A stretch of 64,000 nt of DNA from NCBI GenBank assembly GCA_002706365.1, contig PALM01000032.1, positions 124,001-188,000 of the forward strand, written 5' to 3'. Source of the stretch: Flavobacteriales bacterium (GTDB lineage Bacteria > Bacteroidota > Bacteroidia > Flavobacteriales_E > Vicingaceae). Positions 3,333 to 13,569 of the stretch are shown here, one piece after another. How positions within the stretch are numbered: position 1 is the first letter of the stretch; each line of letters starts with the position of its first letter. Both the position numbers and the translations under genes were made by a program. The notes beneath the pieces are model-generated. The model did not search any database, was not told the origin of the DNA, and saw only the letters and a list, made by a program, of their open reading frames with translations.

Positions 3333-6300
3333 ATGAAGCGTTTCTTCAGGCTATTACTGTTTATCGGTATCCTTTTGCTTGGGTCTTATAAGTCTCATGC
3401 ATTAGTTATTGGTGCTGCCACATCAGAGCAACAACCTTCTTGTCAGGGGGCGTTTGATGGTTGGGTGACAATTGATTCATTGATCACATCACCACCAACA
3501 GGTCCTTATGTTATTCGTATCAATACTGTGCCTGTGCAATTCTTCAATGTAGGTGACACAGTATTCAATCTTACTACTCAGAATTACATCATTACCATAC
3601 TGGATTTAGCGGATAACTCAGTTGCTTTTGCTCCTGTGAATTTTGCTTCTTCCGGACTAAACGCAGCCGCCTTCTCATTCCCAGCCTCTTGTTTTGGAGT
3701 ATGTGATGGTAGTGCGAGTGTGGCAGCTATTGGAGGTTCTACTCCTTACACTTTCGCATGGGATGATCCTCTAGCACAAACCACTCAAGTGGCAACAAAC
3801 CTTTGTGCAGGTGTATATAGAGTAACAGTGAGCGATAACAATGGTTGTACTGTAGTTGACTCTACAACAGTTGCAGAGCCACCACAGATCTTGCCCAATG
3901 TTGTTGTAACTGATGTAAGTTGTTTTGGATTCAGTGATGGATCTGCAACTTCCACTCCTAGTGGAGGAACGGGGACATTTGTGGGATATGCATGGTCTAG
4001 TAGCGGTAATACTACTCCAACCGAAGGTAGCTTAACTGCTGGTACATATACCATCACTGTTACAGATGATGATGGTTGTACGGGTACGCAGACGTTTACA
4101 GTTGGCCAACCTGCAGCACTTGCAGTTAATTTCAGTATAGTTAATGTAGACTGTTTTAGTGATAGTACAGGATCCATCACCTCTAATGTGAGTGGAGGAA
4201 CAACAGCATATACCTTTAACTGGAATGATGGTCCAACAACACAAAACAGGACCTTGATTCCCTCCGGAACTTATACGGTTACCATCACAGATAATAATGG
4301 ATGTGTGCTTGTAGATTCAGCTACTGTTATTGAAAACCCCGATATTAATATCACCTTGAATGTATTGCAGAACAATGCATGTTTTGGAGATACTGATGGT
4401 AGGATCAATGGAAGTTGGACTGGCGGTTCTGCGCCTTATTCATTTGATTGGTCGAATCTTGCCAATGGAACCGGAGCTAATTCTACAATTAATAATCTTG
4501 CTGCGGGCACTTACACTGTAACGGTCACAGATAATTTAGGATGTACTCAAGTTGACTCAATAGCTGTAACCGAACAACCTCAAATTCAGATCGCAGTTGA
4601 TAATGTAACTGATCCAAGCTGTAATGGTGATTCAGATGGATCAATTGGTCTTACAGTGAGTGGAGGAACTCCAGCCTTGACCTTTGGATGGAATACAACT
4701 GCTACTACTGAAGACATTAGCTCATTAGGAGCAGGAACATATACATTGACCGTAACTGATGCCAATGGATGTACGGCAGTCTTCGACACTACTTTGAATA
4801 ATCCACCATTGCTCACTTTGGTATTTGACAGTTTGAGCAACGTAAGTTGTAATGGACTTAATGATGGTTATGCAAGTGTACTCCCAAGTGGAGGTACAGG
4901 AGCTTACACATACAATTGGAGCAATATTGTTTCTACAGCGGCTAATCCAAACCTAATTGCGGGCACTTATACGATCACTGTGACTGATGCGAGTGGTTGT
5001 ACGGCTGTAGATAGCACCACCATTACTCAGCCAGCTGCAATTTCTGTAGCTATGGGCTCTACCCCTGCCAGCTGTGCGGGTATAAATGATGGTACTGCCC
5101 AGTCTACACCTAGCGGAGGTACGCCACCTTACACTTATTTGTGGGCACCTGGTTCACAAACCACACAAAACATCACCAACCTCGCCGCTGGTACTTACAC
5201 CGTTACTGTTACAGATCAGAATGGTTGTACTGAAAGGGATAGTGTAGTTGTTGGCGCACCAACAGCGATAACAATAAATATTACCCCGAGCAATTTAGCT
5301 TGTAATGGAGATAATTCAGGTGCTGCATTAGCAAATGTTTTGGGGGGAAATCCACCTTATACTTTCCTTTGGGATGATCCATTGGCTCAGACTACTAATC
5401 CTGCTTCATCCCTTGCGGCAGGCACTTACCGATTAACTGTAACGGATAATAGTGGATGTACCGGAGTAGATTCTATCACCTTAACTGAACCTGCTGTATT
5501 GGCAGGTACGCTAAACACTTACGATGTGAGTTGTGGAGGTGTAAATGATGGTGCTGCAAGAGTAATTGCAAGTGGAGGCACCTTGCCTTATACTTACCAA
5601 TGGGGTCCTGGTAACCCTACCGGACAAGGAACGGATTCCATTTCGGGATTGGCTGCAGGTAACTATAGCCTTACCCTCACTGATGATAATGGTTGTAATA
5701 CCACTTTCAATTTTACCATCAATCAATCACCGCCTACTTTCAGTATTGCAGATTCTAGTGTAGATCCACTATGTAATGGGGGCAATACAGGCTTTATTGG
5801 ACTTCAGATTAGTGGTGGAGCAGCACCCTTTAATTACAATTGGACTCCAGGGCCACTGCCAAATCAACCAAATCAGCCCGGACTGATTGCGGGAACTTAC
5901 AATGTGACCGTAACAGATAACAATGGCTGTACGAATACGAGATCAATAAACTTAAATCAACCTTCTGCTATCAATGTAATAGATAGTATAACGGATGAGA
6001 GCTGTTTCCCGGGAAACGATGGAATAATTACACTCATTGTAAGTGGAGGTACTCCTGGCTATAATTACAATTGGAGTCCACCTTTATCTAACTCACCAAA
6101 TCAAACTGGCTTATCAGCTGGAACATATGATGTAACTATAACAGACCTTAATGCCTGTTCTGTAACTGGTAGCTATACGGTGAATGCAATTGGAGCACCA
6201 TTCACAGTCTCATTGATCCCTAATGATGTCTCTTGTAATGGTCTATCAGATGGATCTATACTTGCAAATACAAATCCAGGAGGTTCGAATTTCAGATACA

Positions 6301-9300
6301 CTTGGTCTGATATTGGTCCTGGAGCTTCATTAAGATTTCCACTTTCTGCTGGAACTTATACAGTTACGGTTACAGATACACTTACAGGGTGTTTTGTGAT
6401 AGATAGTGCTACCGTGAATCAACCTCCTGTGATCCAGAGCAATTTGAATATCACGCCTGATGGTTGTAGTTCATCTGGAGCAGGAAGTGTGACTTCAAAC
6501 CCAAGCGGTGGAAATGGCGCACCTTTTAATTTTGCGTGGAATACACCAGGTGGAACAGTAAGCGGTAATTCAGTGACTAACCTCAGTGCAGGAATCTACG
6601 ATGTTACAATCACAGATAATAATGGCTGTACATTGGTAGACACCTTTACAGTAAGTTCTGTTACTAGCAATATCATTCCTAATGATTCGGTAACAGATGC
6701 CAGCTGTTTTGGTGGCTGTGATGGATTCATCAGATTGAACCCTACTGGAGGAGTGGCTCCTTATTTCTTTGCTTGGAGTGACCTCCCCATTGTTTCTCCA
6801 AACAGATCATTCCTTTGTGCAGGTAATTACACAGTAACCATAACAGGCTCGGATAATTGCGATACGGTACTTACCCTTACAGTTGGTCAGGCTCCGGCAA
6901 TCTCAGCAACTATAAACACTACTCCCGATACATGTGTGCAGGGTGTTGGTGGAGCTAGAGCTACTGCTATAACAAATGGAACGCCTCCATATACCTTTAA
7001 TTGGCCTTTCGGAGGTGTAGCTGTTGGCGATAGTGTCAGAGATCTTACTGCGGGTAATTACAACCTAACGATTACAGATGATGATGGATGCCAATCTATC
7101 CTTCCTTTCACAATCGGGAATGATGCCAACTTTACAGTAAACTTAACCACCACCCCTGTAAGCTGTAGTGATGGAAGTGATGGAACCATTACCGTAAATG
7201 TGGTTAATGGAACTTCGCCAGTCACCTACGACTGGACAGGTGGTTTATCAGGTCCAATGCCAGGTAATCTTAGAGCGGGAACTTATACCATTACTGTGAC
7301 AGACGCTGTTGGTTGTGGTGCCATTAAATCCATCCAAGTAATACAACCTCCAAAAATCGAGTTTTTAGGTGTTTTAACTACCCCTGAGAATTGTATTCCA
7401 GGTAATGATGGAACGGGCAAGGCTAACTTTATTGGAGGTACTCCACCTTACAATTATACTTGGCCAGCGCCCGGTGTTGGAATTGGGGATTCAGTTAGTG
7501 GTCTACCTGCTGGTAATTACAATTTGACTTTTGCAGATGCCAATGGATGTGATACTATAGTAAACTTTACTATTGGAGCTGCAGCAGCATTCAATGTGAA
7601 CTTAACTAAGGTCGATGCTAGCTGCAATGGAGCAATGGATGGTTCAATCAGCTTGGCAGTCACCGGAGCTGTGCCTCCATTAACTTACAACTGGTCAGAT
7701 ATTGGTCTTGGTCCACAAAATAGAACGAACCTAGGAGCAGGGGTTTATGTAGTTACCATTACTGATGGCACCGGATGTCCTGAAATTGCATCCACTGCAA
7801 TCAGGGAAGCAGATGCAGTTATTATTGACGAAATAGTTGTTACAGACGAAAGTTGTACCCCTGGATTTGATGGAACAGCAACTTCTGTTATCCAAGGTGG
7901 TATTCCCCCTTATACCTATACATGGACGGGTACAACAGCAACCACTCCAGGAGTTACGGGATTGGTTGCAGGCACATACGAATTAATCGTTACTGATTCT
8001 GCAGGATGCGCAGACACGGCAAATTATGTTATTGGCACAGGTTCAAACATTACACCTAACGAGACAATCACAGATGCTAGTTGTTTTAGCTTCTGTGACG
8101 GACAAATAACACTGAGCCCTACCGGAGGAATTGCTCCTTATACTTACAATTGGACTCCTATTCCAGGAACTACAGAAACATTGAGCAATCTATGCGCCGG
8201 TGGATATCAAGTTACGATTACTGACAACATAGGCTGCTCAACGATTGAAAGCTTTATTGTAGATGAACCAAACGACATGCTCGCAACCTTTACGCGAACA
8301 ACTGAATCCTGTGTTCCTGGTGGAGATGGAACCGTGAGTATTGATGTGAGTAGAGGAACACAGCCATATACATACAATTGGGGCTCAGGAAACGTGCCAG
8401 GTAATTCAATTGGATTCTTAAATGCAGGTAGTTATAATGTTACTGTAACTGACGCCAATGCATGTTCAAAGGTATTCCCATATATCATAGACCCTAGTTC
8501 CGCAATTACAGTTTCTACAGTTACCACTCCTGCTTCTTGTGGAAACAACGACGGAACAATTACTGTAAGTGTAGCGAACTCAACAAACCCTCTAACCTTT
8601 GATTGGAGCAATATATCTGTTGGTGGAGCAGATCCAATCAATTTGGCAGCTGGAACATATACTGTTACTGTGACTGATGGTAATGGATGTACTGATGTTG
8701 AAACGGTCACCGTGATTGAGGATGGCAATTACCCACTCAATGAGGTCATTACCGATGTGAGTTGTAATGGAGATTGTGATGGGGATATTACACTTTCACC
8801 TTCTGGTGGTGTTAGCCCTTATACTTATCTGTGGGATAATAACACAACTAATTTCTTCAGGGCCGGTCTTTGTGCAGGCACCTATGATGTTACTGTAACC
8901 GATAATACCGGATGTTCTACAACAGGAAGTTTCGATGTTGGAGAACCTCCAGTCTTAGATGCAAACCTCACAGTTGTGGATGAATCCTGCAACCCTGGTG
9001 GTGATGGTTCTGTTACTTCTACACCTCTTGGAGGAACTGCTCCATTCACTTATCTATGGTCGCCCGGTGGTGCAACGAGCTCTTCAATCTCAAGCCTTGG
9101 AAGCGGAACCTATAGAGTAACTGTAACAGACGACAATGGTTGTTCAGTAGTGGATAGCGCTGATGTAGCAAGTGGTGGCAATATTGTGCTTAATGAAGTC
9201 ATCAATGATGCCAATTGTAATGGTAATTGTAATGGAGATATTACTCTAGCACCTTCAGGTGGATCAGCACCTTATACTTACTTATGGGATAATAACTCAA

Positions 9301-12300
9301 ATGCCAATAATAGAACTGCACTATGTGCAGGTAATTACGATGTAACAGTAACCGACAATTTTGGGTGTTCTACTACTAGGTCGTTTACCGTGAACGAGCC
9401 AGCTGTTCTTGAAGCCAATGCTACTGCAACAGATGAGTCCTGCTTCCCTAGAAATGATGGAACAACGAATACTTCAGCAACTGGAGGTACACCACCATAC
9501 ACCTACTTATGGTCATCTGGTGGAGCAACAACAACTGGATTAACTGGTCTTAATAGTGGTAACTATACAGTTACAGTAACGGATAATAATGGCTGTACTG
9601 ATGTAGAAACCGTTACCGTGAACACTGGTGGAAGTATTTCTCTGAACGAAACTGTGATCAGTCCAACATGTTTCAGTGATTGTGATGGATCTATCACCTT
9701 GTCCCCTTCTGGAGGGTCGTCTCCTTATACCTATCTATGGGATGATAATTCAACTAGCTTCTTCAGAACTTCTTTATGCGCTGGCAACTACGATGTAACA
9801 GTAACTGATTTCTTTGGCTGTAGAAGAACTGCAACTATTGCAGTTACTGAGCCAGATTCACTTCAAGCCAACATGAGTTCTACTGCTGAAAGTTGTACTC
9901 CTGGTGCTGATGGAACAGCCTCTAGTTCAGCTCTTGGTGGAACTCCTCCTTACACCTACAATTGGTCGCCAGTAGCGGCAACTACTCCTGGTATTAGCAG
10001 CTTGAATGCCGGAACTTACAGATTGACCATTACAGATGATAATGGATGCTTTGTAGTAGACAGTATTGTGGTAAATGGTGGTGGAAATATTCAATTCAAT
10101 GAGACCATCGTAGATGCAAGCTGTAATGGAGATTGTGATGGTAATATTAGCTTAAGTCCTTCAGGTGGAACAGCACCTTATACTTATCTGTGGGATGATA
10201 ATTCAACTAACTTCTTTAGAGCTGGATTATGCGCAGGGACTTATAGCGTAACTGTCACCGACAATACCTCTTGTAGTGCAAGTACTAGCTTTACTGTAAT
10301 TGAACCGGCTGTGCTCAGTTCAAATCTTAATTCCTTTGATGAATCGTGTACTCCAGGTAATGATGGATCAGCAACTACTGCAGTAAGTGGAGGTACGCCT
10401 CCGTATACTTATCTGTGGTCTCCGGGCGGTGCCACAACACCTGGAATAAGCAGCCTGAATGCTGGTTCATACTTTGTAACCATTACAGATAATAATGGAT
10501 GTGTTGCACTTGACACTGCTGTGATCAATTCTGGAGGAAATATCCAATTCAATGAAATCATTGATGAAGCAAGCTGTAATGGTACTTGCGATGGAAGAAT
10601 AAGAATCTTCATCAGTGGAGGAACAGGCCCTTATGCATTCCTCTGGAATGATAATCTAACAAACAGTAATAGACCGGGATTATGTGCCGGTACTTATTCA
10701 CTTACAGTTACTGATGGAACAGGATGTACTAAAGTGGGAACATTCGCAGTGAACGAGCCTCCAGTACTACAAGCAAATGTTGGTTCTGTAGATGAGAGTT
10801 GTGCACCTGGAAATGATGGTAGAGCAACTACAGCCGCTACCGGAGGTACTGCTCCATACACCTATCGTTGGAGCCCGGGTGGCGCAGTTACACCAAACTT
10901 GAGTGGACTTAGCGCAGGAAGTTATTTTGTAACTGTTACAGATAACAATGGCTGTTCTGACTTAGATACTGCTATTGTAAATAGTGGTGGAAACATCATC
11001 CTCAATGAAATAATCAATGATGCCAGCTGTAATGGAGATTGTGATGGAGATATCACACTAAATCCTAGCGGTGGTGTTGCCCCATATTCTTTCCTATGGG
11101 ATGATAATACAACTAACCCTTCCAGAACTAATCTTTGTGCTGGTAGCTATGATGTAACCATAACCGACAATATTGGATGTATAGCAATAAGAACGGTTTC
11201 TGTTAGTGAACCGGATCCGCTCTTGGCTAATGCTGTTCCAGTTGATGAAGGCTGTGCAGGTGGGGATGGATCTGTTGGTACCTCGGCAAGTGGTGGTACA
11301 CCTCCATACACTTACCTATGGAGCTTTGGATCAGCTACAACTCCGGGAATTAGCGGATTGACTGCCGGATCATATACAGTGACTCTTAGCGATAATAATG
11401 GCTGTACTACAATTGAATCTGTTGTGGTCAATACAGGAGGTAATTTTGTCTTGAATGAAGTAACAACGGGTGTAAGTTGTAATGGGGAATGTGATGGAAG
11501 TATAGTTCTAAGTCCTAGTGGAGGAGTTTCTCCATACACTTATCTCTGGGATGACAATTCTACTGATTCCAGCAGAACAGGATTATGTGCTGGCACTTAT
11601 TCTGTTACTATAACAGATGCAACTGCTTGTGCAATTACAAGATTCTTGACATTAGTTGATCCTCCTCTCATTACTCTGACTTTGAATTCTTCTTCAGTGC
11701 TGATCTGTAGTTCAGATTGTGATGGTACTGCAGATGTAAGTGCAAGTGGTGGTACAGCGCCTTATACATTTAATTGGGATGGCGGACAAACGGGTAGCAC
11801 ACCAAACGATCTATGCTTTGGTCCAAATATTTTAACTGTTACAGATGCCATTGGATGTACAGAACAGCTTACTGTGAATATTGCAGCAATAGATACAGTT
11901 GATGCTCAGGTTCCTGCAGATAACATAATCTGCGAAGGGGATAGTATAGAGTTGAGAGGTACAGTTCTTGGATCTACAGTCACATCTTTTGGTTGGTATT
12001 TGGGAGACGCAACTACTCTACTTACTAATTCACTTGACACTACGATCCTAAGACCAATAGGTACTTATTCATTCTTCCTTATTGCGACAAATGGAAGTTG
12101 TAGCGATACCACTGAGTATAATCCTACAGTTGTACCAAACCCAGCTATAATGGTGTCTCCTACGATCAACATCTATGAGGATGAAGTGGCCACTCTTAAT
12201 ATTAGCGGAAAACAAGCAAGCTATCTGTACAATTGGAGTCCGGCAGAAGGCTTGAACGATAGTACACTTGCTGAACCAACAGCCACATTAGAAGAGAGTC

Positions 12301-12644
12301 GTACATATGTGCTCACAGTTACAGACACCAATGGATGTAACTATATTGATTCCATAAGAGTGATCTATAATGAGGAATTGAGAATCCCATCAGGTATCTC
12401 TCCAAATGGTGATGGCAAGAACGATGTATGGAGAATTTCCGTATTAGAAGAGTTCCCGAATGCAAGTGTTCAGATCTTCAACCGTTGGGGAGAGCTGTTG
12501 TATGAGCAGCCTAATGGATATAAAGAACCATGGGACGGAACTTATAAAGGCAAGGCCCTTCCGGTAGGAACGTATTATTATGTGATCGATCTGAAGAGCG
12601 ATCGCTTTGAAACGATAACTGGCCCAATAACAATTGTGAAATAA
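3333..12644 (+). CDS. Giant SprB-repeat cell-surface adhesin with T9SS type B sorting domain
   Basis: A 3103-residue secreted protein. An N-terminal signal peptide (ends near KSHA, residue 23) and a short lead domain are followed by about 36 SprB repeats of 73-80 residues from about residue 117 to 2830. Each has the pattern C-N-G-x-x-D-G, S-G-G-T-x-P-Y-T-Y-x-W, L-x-A-G-T-Y-x-V-T-V-T-D, N-G-C. Two Ig/PKD-like domains and a CHU_C/gliding-associated C-terminal domain follow (SPNGDGKNDVW, FNRWGE, PVGTYYYVIDL). Such C-terminal domains direct export by T9SS and surface attachment. SprB itself is the mobile gliding adhesin of Flavobacterium, so this may be an adhesin for gliding or attachment; gliding is not proven. 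Repeats 23-35 alternate strictly between two types. Large minus-strand open frames inside the gene are artefacts of repeat codon bias. Confidence 0.93.
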   Translation: MKRFFRLLLFIGILLLGSYKSHALVIGAATSEQQPSCQGAFDGWVTIDSLITSPPTGPYVIRINTVPVQFFNVGDTVFNLTTQNYIITILDLADNSVAFAPVNFASSGLNAAAFSFPASCFGVCDGSASVAAIGGSTPYTFAWDDPLAQTTQVATNLCAGVYRVTVSDNNGCTVVDSTTVAEPPQILPNVVVTDVSCFGFSDGSATSTPSGGTGTFVGYAWSSSGNTTPTEGSLTAGTYTITVTDDDGCTGTQTFTVGQPAALAVNFSIVNVDCFSDSTGSITSNVSGGTTAYTFNWNDGPTTQNRTLIPSGTYTVTITDNNGCVLVDSATVIENPDINITLNVLQNNACFGDTDGRINGSWTGGSAPYSFDWSNLANGTGANSTINNLAAGTYTVTVTDNLGCTQVDSIAVTEQPQIQIAVDNVTDPSCNGDSDGSIGLTVSGGTPALTFGWNTTATTEDISSLGAGTYTLTVTDANGCTAVFDTTLNNPPLLTLVFDSLSNVSCNGLNDGYASVLPSGGTGAYTYNWSNIVSTAANPNLIAGTYTITVTDASGCTAVDSTTITQPAAISVAMGSTPASCAGINDGTAQSTPSGGTPPYTYLWAPGSQTTQNITNLAAGTYTVTVTDQNGCTERDSVVVGAPTAITINITPSNLACNGDNSGAALANVLGGNPPYTFLWDDPLAQTTNPASSLAAGTYRLTVTDNSGCTGVDSITLTEPAVLAGTLNTYDVSCGGVNDGAARVIASGGTLPYTYQWGPGNPTGQGTDSISGLAAGNYSLTLTDDNGCNTTFNFTINQSPPTFSIADSSVDPLCNGGNTGFIGLQISGGAAPFNYNWTPGPLPNQPNQPGLIAGTYNVTVTDNNGCTNTRSINLNQPSAINVIDSITDESCFPGNDGIITLIVSGGTPGYNYNWSPPLSNSPNQTGLSAGTYDVTITDLNACSVTGSYTVNAIGAPFTVSLIPNDVSCNGLSDGSILANTNPGGSNFRYTWSDIGPGASLRFPLSAGTYTVTVTDTLTGCFVIDSATVNQPPVIQSNLNITPDGCSSSGAGSVTSNPSGGNGAPFNFAWNTPGGTVSGNSVTNLSAGIYDVTITDNNGCTLVDTFTVSSVTSNIIPNDSVTDASCFGGCDGFIRLNPTGGVAPYFFAWSDLPIVSPNRSFLCAGNYTVTITGSDNCDTVLTLTVGQAPAISATINTTPDTCVQGVGGARATAITNGTPPYTFNWPFGGVAVGDSVRDLTAGNYNLTITDDDGCQSILPFTIGNDANFTVNLTTTPVSCSDGSDGTITVNVVNGTSPVTYDWTGGLSGPMPGNLRAGTYTITVTDAVGCGAIKSIQVIQPPKIEFLGVLTTPENCIPGNDGTGKANFIGGTPPYNYTWPAPGVGIGDSVSGLPAGNYNLTFADANGCDTIVNFTIGAAAAFNVNLTKVDASCNGAMDGSISLAVTGAVPPLTYNWSDIGLGPQNRTNLGAGVYVVTITDGTGCPEIASTAIREADAVIIDEIVVTDESCTPGFDGTATSVIQGGIPPYTYTWTGTTATTPGVTGLVAGTYELIVTDSAGCADTANYVIGTGSNITPNETITDASCFSFCDGQITLSPTGGIAPYTYNWTPIPGTTETLSNLCAGGYQVTITDNIGCSTIESFIVDEPNDMLATFTRTTESCVPGGDGTVSIDVSRGTQPYTYNWGSGNVPGNSIGFLNAGSYNVTVTDANACSKVFPYIIDPSSAITVSTVTTPASCGNNDGTITVSVANSTNPLTFDWSNISVGGADPINLAAGTYTVTVTDGNGCTDVETVTVIEDGNYPLNEVITDVSCNGDCDGDITLSPSGGVSPYTYLWDNNTTNFFRAGLCAGTYDVTVTDNTGCSTTGSFDVGEPPVLDANLTVVDESCNPGGDGSVTSTPLGGTAPFTYLWSPGGATSSSISSLGSGTYRVTVTDDNGCSVVDSADVASGGNIVLNEVINDANCNGNCNGDITLAPSGGSAPYTYLWDNNSNANNRTALCAGNYDVTVTDNFGCSTTRSFTVNEPAVLEANATATDESCFPRNDGTTNTSATGGTPPYTYLWSSGGATTTGLTGLNSGNYTVTVTDNNGCTDVETVTVNTGGSISLNETVISPTCFSDCDGSITLSPSGGSSPYTYLWDDNSTSFFRTSLCAGNYDVTVTDFFGCRRTATIAVTEPDSLQANMSSTAESCTPGADGTASSSALGGTPPYTYNWSPVAATTPGISSLNAGTYRLTITDDNGCFVVDSIVVNGGGNIQFNETIVDASCNGDCDGNISLSPSGGTAPYTYLWDDNSTNFFRAGLCAGTYSVTVTDNTSCSASTSFTVIEPAVLSSNLNSFDESCTPGNDGSATTAVSGGTPPYTYLWSPGGATTPGISSLNAGSYFVTITDNNGCVALDTAVINSGGNIQFNEIIDEASCNGTCDGRIRIFISGGTGPYAFLWNDNLTNSNRPGLCAGTYSLTVTDGTGCTKVGTFAVNEPPVLQANVGSVDESCAPGNDGRATTAATGGTAPYTYRWSPGGAVTPNLSGLSAGSYFVTVTDNNGCSDLDTAIVNSGGNIILNEIINDASCNGDCDGDITLNPSGGVAPYSFLWDDNTTNPSRTNLCAGSYDVTITDNIGCIAIRTVSVSEPDPLLANAVPVDEGCAGGDGSVGTSASGGTPPYTYLWSFGSATTPGISGLTAGSYTVTLSDNNGCTTIESVVVNTGGNFVLNEVTTGVSCNGECDGSIVLSPSGGVSPYTYLWDDNSTDSSRTGLCAGTYSVTITDATACAITRFLTLVDPPLITLTLNSSSVLICSSDCDGTADVSASGGTAPYTFNWDGGQTGSTPNDLCFGPNILTVTDAIGCTEQLTVNIAAIDTVDAQVPADNIICEGDSIELRGTVLGSTVTSFGWYLGDATTLLTNSLDTTILRPIGTYSFFLIATNGSCSDTTEYNPTVVPNPAIMVSPTINIYEDEVATLNISGKQASYLYNWSPAEGLNDSTLAEPTATLEESRTYVLTVTDTNGCNYIDSIRVIYNEELRIPSGISPNGDGKNDVWRISVLEEFPNASVQIFNRWGELLYEQPNGYKEPWDGTYKGKALPVGTYYYVIDLKSDRFETITGPITIVK
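8750..11680 (+). repeat. Higher-order A/B dimer array inside the adhesin gene
   Basis: Thirteen consecutive SprB repeats (numbers 23-35 by my count) alternate between type A (CNGDCDG ... LCAG, usually ending with a -EP- strand) and type B (V/TDESCxPGxDG ... GG-N-I-x-L/F-N-E). The unit is therefore a dimer of about 150 residues, or roughly 450 bases, repeated six and a half times. Coordinates are approximate to a few codons. Repeats 1-22 are more diverged and not strictly alternating, which suggests the array grew by duplicating dimers towards the 3' end. Confidence 0.8.
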
Positions 12645-12645
12645 G

Positions 12646-13569
12646 ATGTTGAAGCAACTACATAGACTGATTCTTACTGGATGCTTGCTGAGTCTGGGCT
12701 TCATCGCCATAGGTCAACAATTGCCTCAATACAGCCAGTATATTCTAAATCGATATGTGATCAATCCTGCCTCAGCGGGTAGTGAGCAATATTTCGTAGG
12801 ACAAACCAATTACCGTAATCAATGGGCTGGTATCAAAGATGCCCCATCTACATACATCTTAAGTGTAAATGGTCCATTAGCTAGTAATATGGGAATTGGT
12901 GGTTACCTCTTTTCGGATGTAACCGGCCCCACAAGAAGAAATGGCTTTAACTTCTCTTATTCATATATCATTCAGTTGAATGATGAGATCAGGTTATCTA
13001 TGGCGCTTAATGCAGGATTATTGCAATTCACAATTGACGGTACCGAGATCACTTTCGAAGAAGAGAACGATAATATTTTGGCTTCGGCTAGAGAAGATAA
13101 TTTTTTCCCAGATGCCGGATTTAGTATATACCTCTTTGGCCCTAATTACTTCTTCGGCGCTTCAGCACCTCAACTTATCAGGAATCAGTTGGATTTCGAG
13201 AAGTCGGTTGAAGATCCTACAGGTCGTTTAACATCTCATTATTTCATCACAGGTGGATATACTTATGAGATCAATGATGATTTTGATCTAGAACCATCAA
13301 TGATGCTGAAATATGTGCGTCCGGTTCCCATGCAATACGAATTCAGCGTGAGAGGAATCTATCAAGATATGGCTTGGTTAGGACTCTCATATAGAAAAAC
13401 GGATGCAATAGTCTTATTGGCTGGATATACTCTGCAGGATAATATATCTATAGGCTATGCCTATGACTTTATTCAGTCAAATATTGGCAACTACAGCAGT
13501 GGCTCACATGAGATCATGCTATCTGTGAAGTTCAATAAAAGAAAGAGTTCTATCCCCGACGAAGATTAA
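12646..13569 (+). CDS. PorP/SprF-family type IX secretion membrane protein
   Basis: A 307-residue outer-membrane protein with a signal peptide ending near AIGQQ. The opening of the mature part (LPQYSQYILNRYVINPASAG) is the hallmark of the PorP/SprF family. The rest is beta-strand rich, as expected for a small barrel. It starts two bases after the stop of the giant adhesin gene, so the two are surely cotranscribed. In Flavobacterium, SprF is needed to place SprB on the surface, and genes of this family often follow genes for type B-domain proteins. The natural inference is that it is the dedicated partner of the adhesin upstream. Confidence 0.92.
   Translation: MLKQLHRLILTGCLLSLGFIAIGQQLPQYSQYILNRYVINPASAGSEQYFVGQTNYRNQWAGIKDAPSTYILSVNGPLASNMGIGGYLFSDVTGPTRRNGFNFSYSYIIQLNDEIRLSMALNAGLLQFTIDGTEITFEEENDNILASAREDNFFPDAGFSIYLFGPNYFFGASAPQLIRNQLDFEKSVEDPTGRLTSHYFITGGYTYEINDDFDLEPSMMLKYVRPVPMQYEFSVRGIYQDMAWLGLSYRKTDAIVLLAGYTLQDNISIGYAYDFIQSNIGNYSSGSHEIMLSVKFNKRKSSIPDED

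Follow-up and report, generated by a model that had tools for sequence, protein, structure and literature searches.

The stretch of DNA analysed here, referred to below as the window, comprises 64,000 nucleotides from a Flavobacteriales bacterium (assembly GCA_002706365.1, contig PALM01000032.1, positions 124,001 to 188,000 of the forward strand); the source genome is a 3.0-Mb draft, 96% complete, in which SprB repeats also occur in several other proteins. The gene under study encodes a 3103-residue adhesin built largely of SprB-type repeats and is followed by a gene for an outer-membrane carrier. Judged from its cysteine pattern and predicted fold, this protein is very probably a type IX-secreted, SprF-anchored adhesin of about 39 head-to-tail immunoglobulin (Ig)-like domains, in which a disulfide would join neighbouring repeats at each junction and an optional second disulfide would form within some of the repeats. 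The repeat cysteines are named here by motif: C1 is the cysteine of SC.G, C2 lies four residues after C1 and before DG, C3 belongs to the L-C-A-G turn, and C4 to TD..GC. The features of the locus, in window coordinates, are as follows.

3333..12644, + strand: adhesin open reading frame (ORF), 3103 amino acids (aa), with a signal peptide, 37 SprB-type repeats (R00-R36), two further Ig-like domains and a CHU_C sorting domain
3420..3668, + strand: R00, divergent first repeat (aa 30-112), with C1 (aa 37) and without C4; strands predicted at low confidence
3669..3899, + strand: R01, four-cysteine (A) repeat with C120, C124, C158 and C172
6684..6911, + strand: R14, four-cysteine repeat
8061..8288, + strand: R20, four-cysteine repeat
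8742..8966, + strand: R23, four-cysteine repeat, which opens the triplet modelled with AlphaFold
9195..9419, + strand: R25, four-cysteine repeat
9648..9872, + strand: R27, four-cysteine repeat
10101..10325, + strand: R29, four-cysteine repeat
10554..10778, + strand: R31, four-cysteine repeat
11007..11231, + strand: R33, four-cysteine repeat
11457..11684, + strand: R35, four-cysteine repeat
11685..11909, + strand: R36, four-cysteine repeat (LCFG)
11910..12160 (approximate ends), + strand: domain 37, with C1-like C2867 and C4-like C2923, assigned by eye
12180..12377 (approximate ends), + strand: last Ig-like domain, with C4-like C3002 and without C1
12381..12635, + strand: CHU_C, type IX secretion sorting domain of type B (aa 3017-3101; Pfam, E=1e-25)
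12646..13569, + strand: next ORF, PorP/SprF-type outer-membrane carrier (E=2e-73), whose C-terminal tail lacks cysteine

The Pfam SprB profile (PF13573) matches the adhesin above its curated cut-off in 34 stretches (E=1.4e-283), which identifies it as a SprB-repeat protein. Its CHU_C domain at the C terminus and the PorP/SprF carrier encoded next to it are the two marks of a type B substrate of the type IX secretion system. The tandem Ig-like organization, that is, β-sandwich domains arranged head to tail, is indicated by matches to tandem Ig proteins in Foldseek and VIA and by an AlphaFold model of R23-R24-R25, computed from rows of the window alone (mean predicted local distance difference test, pLDDT, 90.2; predicted template modelling score 0.60). 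In a model of R00-R02 the divergent first repeat reaches a pLDDT of 56-69, so low a confidence that R00 can be called only a putative full Ig domain.

All 98 cysteines of the adhesin were listed and the 37 repeats aligned; the cysteines comprise 38 C1, 38 C4, 11 C2 and 11 C3, with none left over. A first-pass annotation of this DNA, in which repeat number 1 corresponds to R01 and R00 is an additional repeat, had proposed that C2 and C3 always occur together, and the complete listing bears this out: both are found in exactly repeats 1, 14, 20, 23, 25, 27, 29, 31, 33, 35 and 36 (LCFG in 36), and no repeat carries one alone. If repeats were independent, such perfect co-occurrence in 11 of 36 would have a chance probability of 1.7e-9. 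R01 is 51% identical to the two-cysteine repeat R07, against 37-45% for the other four-cysteine repeats, and the pair is therefore not confined to one recent duplication; R36 is merely 28-37% identical to the remaining four-cysteine repeats. The 11 four-cysteine repeats are related, yet do not form one recent family.

The same annotation had pictured an adhesin stapled at defined intervals, which does not hold as a general description. Four-cysteine and two-cysteine repeats (A and B) alternate only from R23 to R35, and the proteins of other loci range from almost all four-cysteine repeats (L100, L117) to none. The alternating region (8742-11684) is organized as a two-repeat super-unit of 151 aa, and its first A-B-A triplet is 56-62% identical to the later triplets. 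The nearest relative (locus L099, G162:C4; 4375 aa) has a 2-4-2-4 alternation near its C-terminal end, with 57-64% identity to the window A-B unit.

The co-occurrence extends well beyond the window. Whole genomes from the phylum and from near relatives supplied SprB-repeat loci, to which 80 named loci from genome contigs were added, and all repeats were scored with a profile derived from those of the window. In a first set of 1300 unique repeats, 404 contain both C2 and C3, 1 contains C2 only, 3 contain C3 only and 892 contain neither. The covariation is likewise evident across all loci of other Bacteroidota (3371 unique repeats: 887 with both, 12 with C2 only, 12 with C3 only, 2460 with neither). 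Masking the cysteine columns in the search profile leaves the pairing unchanged (611 both, 2 C2 only, 6 C3 only, 1286 neither). Among all loci, the match between C2 and C3 becomes much weaker when the partner is shifted to the neighbouring repeat, and the C2-C3 relationship thus lies within one repeat. In an unsupervised scan of all Cys-Cys column pairs, columns 11 and 44, which correspond to C2 and C3, rank top; the associated pairs do not include C1-C4 of the same repeat. When a tree is built with the cysteine columns left out, C2 and C3 change together on 292 branches and separately on 10 (five for each); this tree, of 72 columns, is weakly resolved and the number of events is inflated, though the coincidence of changes is not.

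The more common pair, C1 and C4, behaves differently. The first-pass annotation had implied a bond within each repeat, an assignment contradicted by the pattern of losses. Among two-cysteine-type repeats of the first set, 42 have C1 only, 20 have C4 only and 1 has neither, and across all loci there are 108 and 91 single losses within a repeat versus 2 double losses. Between neighbours, by contrast, the two cysteines are lost together: in the first set C4(n) tracks C1(n-1), with 10 double losses, 2 and 0 single losses, and 1171 junctions at which both are kept (p=4.6e-23). A larger sample gives 17 double versus 6 single losses for C1(n)-C4(n+1), and depending on the sample the double losses number 10 to 42, with p from 1e-22 to 1e-60; this offset is the best of all offsets. 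The a-2-b patterns suggested that C4(n) might instead pair with C1(n+1) or C1(n+2), an option set aside because both associations are far weaker than that with C1(n-1). When the named loci are considered on their own, the neighbour coupling recurs, but C1 is lost with C4 kept in 30 cases.

When cysteines of the linkers are counted (sequences with unknown residues being left out), C4(n+1) is without a partner at 0 of 2884 junctions. This figure takes in 32 junctions, from eight loci, that lack C1(n) and keep C4(n+1); all of them have a linker cysteine, and these relocated cysteines are directly legible in the sequences, as in VNEFICPTLTI or AVGCAGF. Conversely, none of the 24 junctions without any partner has C4(n+1). 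Five loci (L203, L204, L214, L225 and L260) have alternate repeats of a DETxxGANDGTAT type that lack C1, with the new linker cysteine placed just before the next repeat.

In a chain of domains stapled each to the next, the first domain is expected to have C1 without C4, and the last to have C4 without C1. The cysteine order of the adhesin is 1-1-4-1-4 ... 1-4-4, in which R00 has C37 only and the last domain C3002 only; several relatives begin with the same order. C4(n) and C1(n+1) are 25 or 26 residues apart at each of the 36 junctions counted. In two other loci (L078 and L188) a 1-1-4-4 order is repeated. Read by the same rule, it describes putative three-domain stapled blocks in which each third junction is open.

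These observations also bear on the possibility that no bond is involved, and that the cysteines merely mark old repeat subfamilies spread by duplication, their co-occurrence being hitchhiking. The repeats of an array are indeed related and their subtypes cluster (297 Fitch changes versus about 650 when shuffled), and the genome gave no match to the canonical oxidase families. However, C2 and C3 change together far more often than alone on the tree, and the coupling between neighbours, the relocation of C1 to the linker in eight loci and the end rules are all unexpected under hitchhiking, which we regard as very improbable.

The positions of the cysteines in the predicted fold provide a further line of evidence. 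Because A and B repeats can be aligned with one another, the triplet alignments were restricted to rows that stay in register. In the resulting model, strand A spans residues 2-5, B 15-19, E 40-44, F 47-54 and G 60-67; C1 and C2 (residues 9 and 13) lie in the A-B loop, C3 (45) in the E-F turn and C4 (59) just before strand G. In the Ig topology, the A-B loop and the E-F turn are located at the bottom of the domain and the F-G turn at its top. Given this topology and the model strands, C2 and C3 are predicted to be neighbours in one domain, and C1(n) to face C4(n+1) across the junction. Rarer optional cysteine pairs also co-occur in the scan of all loci: columns 49-63 (33 repeats), 47-65 (7) and 16-39 (18). 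One antiparallel register (sum 55) is common to pairs 11-44 and 16-39, and another (sum 112) to pairs 49-63 and 47-65; strands B and E, and F and G, of the model fit these registers.

The strand map places C2 and C3 at facing ends of the neighbouring strands B and E. Since the two behave as one unit and the map sets them opposite each other, an extra intra-repeat disulfide in one repeat subtype, as that annotation had suggested, is likely and constitutes the best reading of this pair. The remainder of its picture, in which C1 and C4 would be bonded inside each repeat and C2-C3 would be a second bond in the subtype, has in its favor that almost all repeats contain both C1 and C4, which would give most repeats an even cysteine count; yet it is highly unlikely, because losses are uncoupled within repeats and coupled between neighbours, because C4 is missing from the first repeat and C1 from the last domain, and because the A-B loop and the F-G turn sit at opposite ends of the domain, by textbook Ig topology as well as in the AlphaFold strands. 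Binding of a metal by C1(n), C2(n), C3(n) and C4(n+1) at four-cysteine junctions, in place of two disulfides, would suit the predicted location of all four thiols at the same domain interface in the triplet model, but it is scarcely credible, given that the pairs are lost independently, that 6 loci keep C2-C3 but have neither C1(n) nor C4(n+1), and that 2150 junctions have C1-C4 without C2-C3.

Returning to the adhesin as a disulfide-joined chain of Ig-like domains, we infer from the covariation, its offset, the end rules and the strand positions, all of which the analysis shows, that the bonds form and that they would have mechanical consequences. In the proposed arrangement, the A-B loop at the lower end of domain n supplies C1, which would bond C4, at the start of strand G in the F-G turn at the top of domain n+1. 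In 11 repeats an optional staple would additionally connect C2 of the A-B loop with C3 of the E-F turn, where the ends of strands B and E face each other. The inter-repeat staples would short-circuit the backbone, such that unfolding of a domain could not lengthen the fibre, and the C2-C3 bond would pin the loop that bears the inter-repeat staple to the core of its own domain. Path lengths were computed with 0.36 nm per backbone residue and 0.55 nm per disulfide, against an assumed folded length of 4.0-4.5 nm per domain. The shortest covalent path through the repeats would be 1067 nm in the absence of bonds, compared with a folded length of 156-176 nm; it would fall to 406 nm with intra-repeat C1-C4 bonds, to 192 nm with inter-repeat staples, and to 181 nm when C2-C3 is added. 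The fibre could thus hardly lengthen even with its domains unfolded.

Several points weigh against this interpretation. Repeats that belong to the same protein cannot count as independent samples. At seven junctions C4(n+1) is missing although a possible partner exists; several of these look like cysteines of a third pair counted as linker cysteines. The facing of the cysteine positions in the predicted fold is based on strand registers and covariation rather than on atomic coordinates or Cys-Cys distances. Finally, the draft genome contains no match to DSBA, DsbB, VKOR or Thioredoxin_4, and VKOR is present in just 2 of 41 relatives. The disulfides could possibly arise by air oxidation after export, or through an unrecognised thioredoxin-fold oxidase. 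If the bonds do form, the question is raised of which oxidase makes dozens of them without the usual Dsb or VKOR families.

On a broader view, SprB-type fibres of Bacteroidota could be a general class of inextensible, redox-set tethers in which disulfides connect every domain with the adjacent one, the load would be borne by two interleaved covalent lines with about 25 residues for each two domains, and lineages would tune stiffness by omitting staples (three-domain blocks), relocating them to linkers or adding intra-domain ones; we give this generalization an even chance. The fibres that draw gliding Bacteroidota forward are among the SprB-type adhesins, and any fibre under force has to be kept from unravelling. 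Disulfides that join the domains into a chain would explain how fibres of 150-200 nm survive load, by a route unlike the isopeptide bonds of Gram-positive pili. With the sequence rule itself, C1 of one repeat with C4 of the next, thousands of repeats can be annotated, and the rule predicts a mechanical property that can be measured.

Comparisons can be made with several known systems. SprB/SprF of Flavobacterium johnsoniae shares with the window adhesin the repeat family PF13573, the type B CHU_C domain and the adjacent PorP/SprF carrier. In F. johnsoniae, according to the available text of PMC12635249, SprF has a Cys-X-Cys tail that is disulfide-linked to GldK and required for movement; disulfides at the level of the repeats are not described for SprB in that text. 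The tail of the window carrier (12646-13569), KFNKRKSSIPDED, lacks cysteine and hence the Cys-X-Cys feature of a moving gliding adhesin, which makes it doubtful that the window adhesin travels on the gliding track; on this sequence evidence it may not ride that track. The genome encodes GldK, above the cut-off, and a GldJ-like protein that falls below its cut-off.

In the open literature on cysteines in SprB repeats, interdomain disulfides in adhesins, and GhpA, no description of such staples was found. The closest solved structure by profile is the grappling hook protein GhpA of Aureispira (PDB 9flp, 9flw and others; E=3e-13), which is also the closest by fold (Z 10.8, root-mean-square deviation 6.0 over 211 residues). 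Like the window adhesin, GhpA consists of tandem Ig-like domains, and the part of its sequence available displays C1-like and C4-like cysteines. GhpA forms heptamers. It is much longer than the window adhesin (5898 versus 3103 aa), and the likeness is one of fold and sequence only.

Among Ig-like chains under load, the tandem Ig domains of titin have disulfides that alter extension, these bonds being within a domain and able to isomerise (PMC5766482, in the text available); a domain-to-domain disulfide chain such as that proposed for the window adhesin is not described there. The isopeptide-stabilised adhesins of Gram-positive bacteria, in which, in the portion of PMC8382745 available, a covalent bond blocks the extension of Ig-like domains, offer a functional analogy rather than a class to which the window protein belongs. 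Unlike them, the window protein would use disulfides, placed between neighbouring domains rather than inside one, and it is the covariation of C1(n) with C4(n+1) across junctions that assigns it to the proposed class of disulfide-stapled domain chains.

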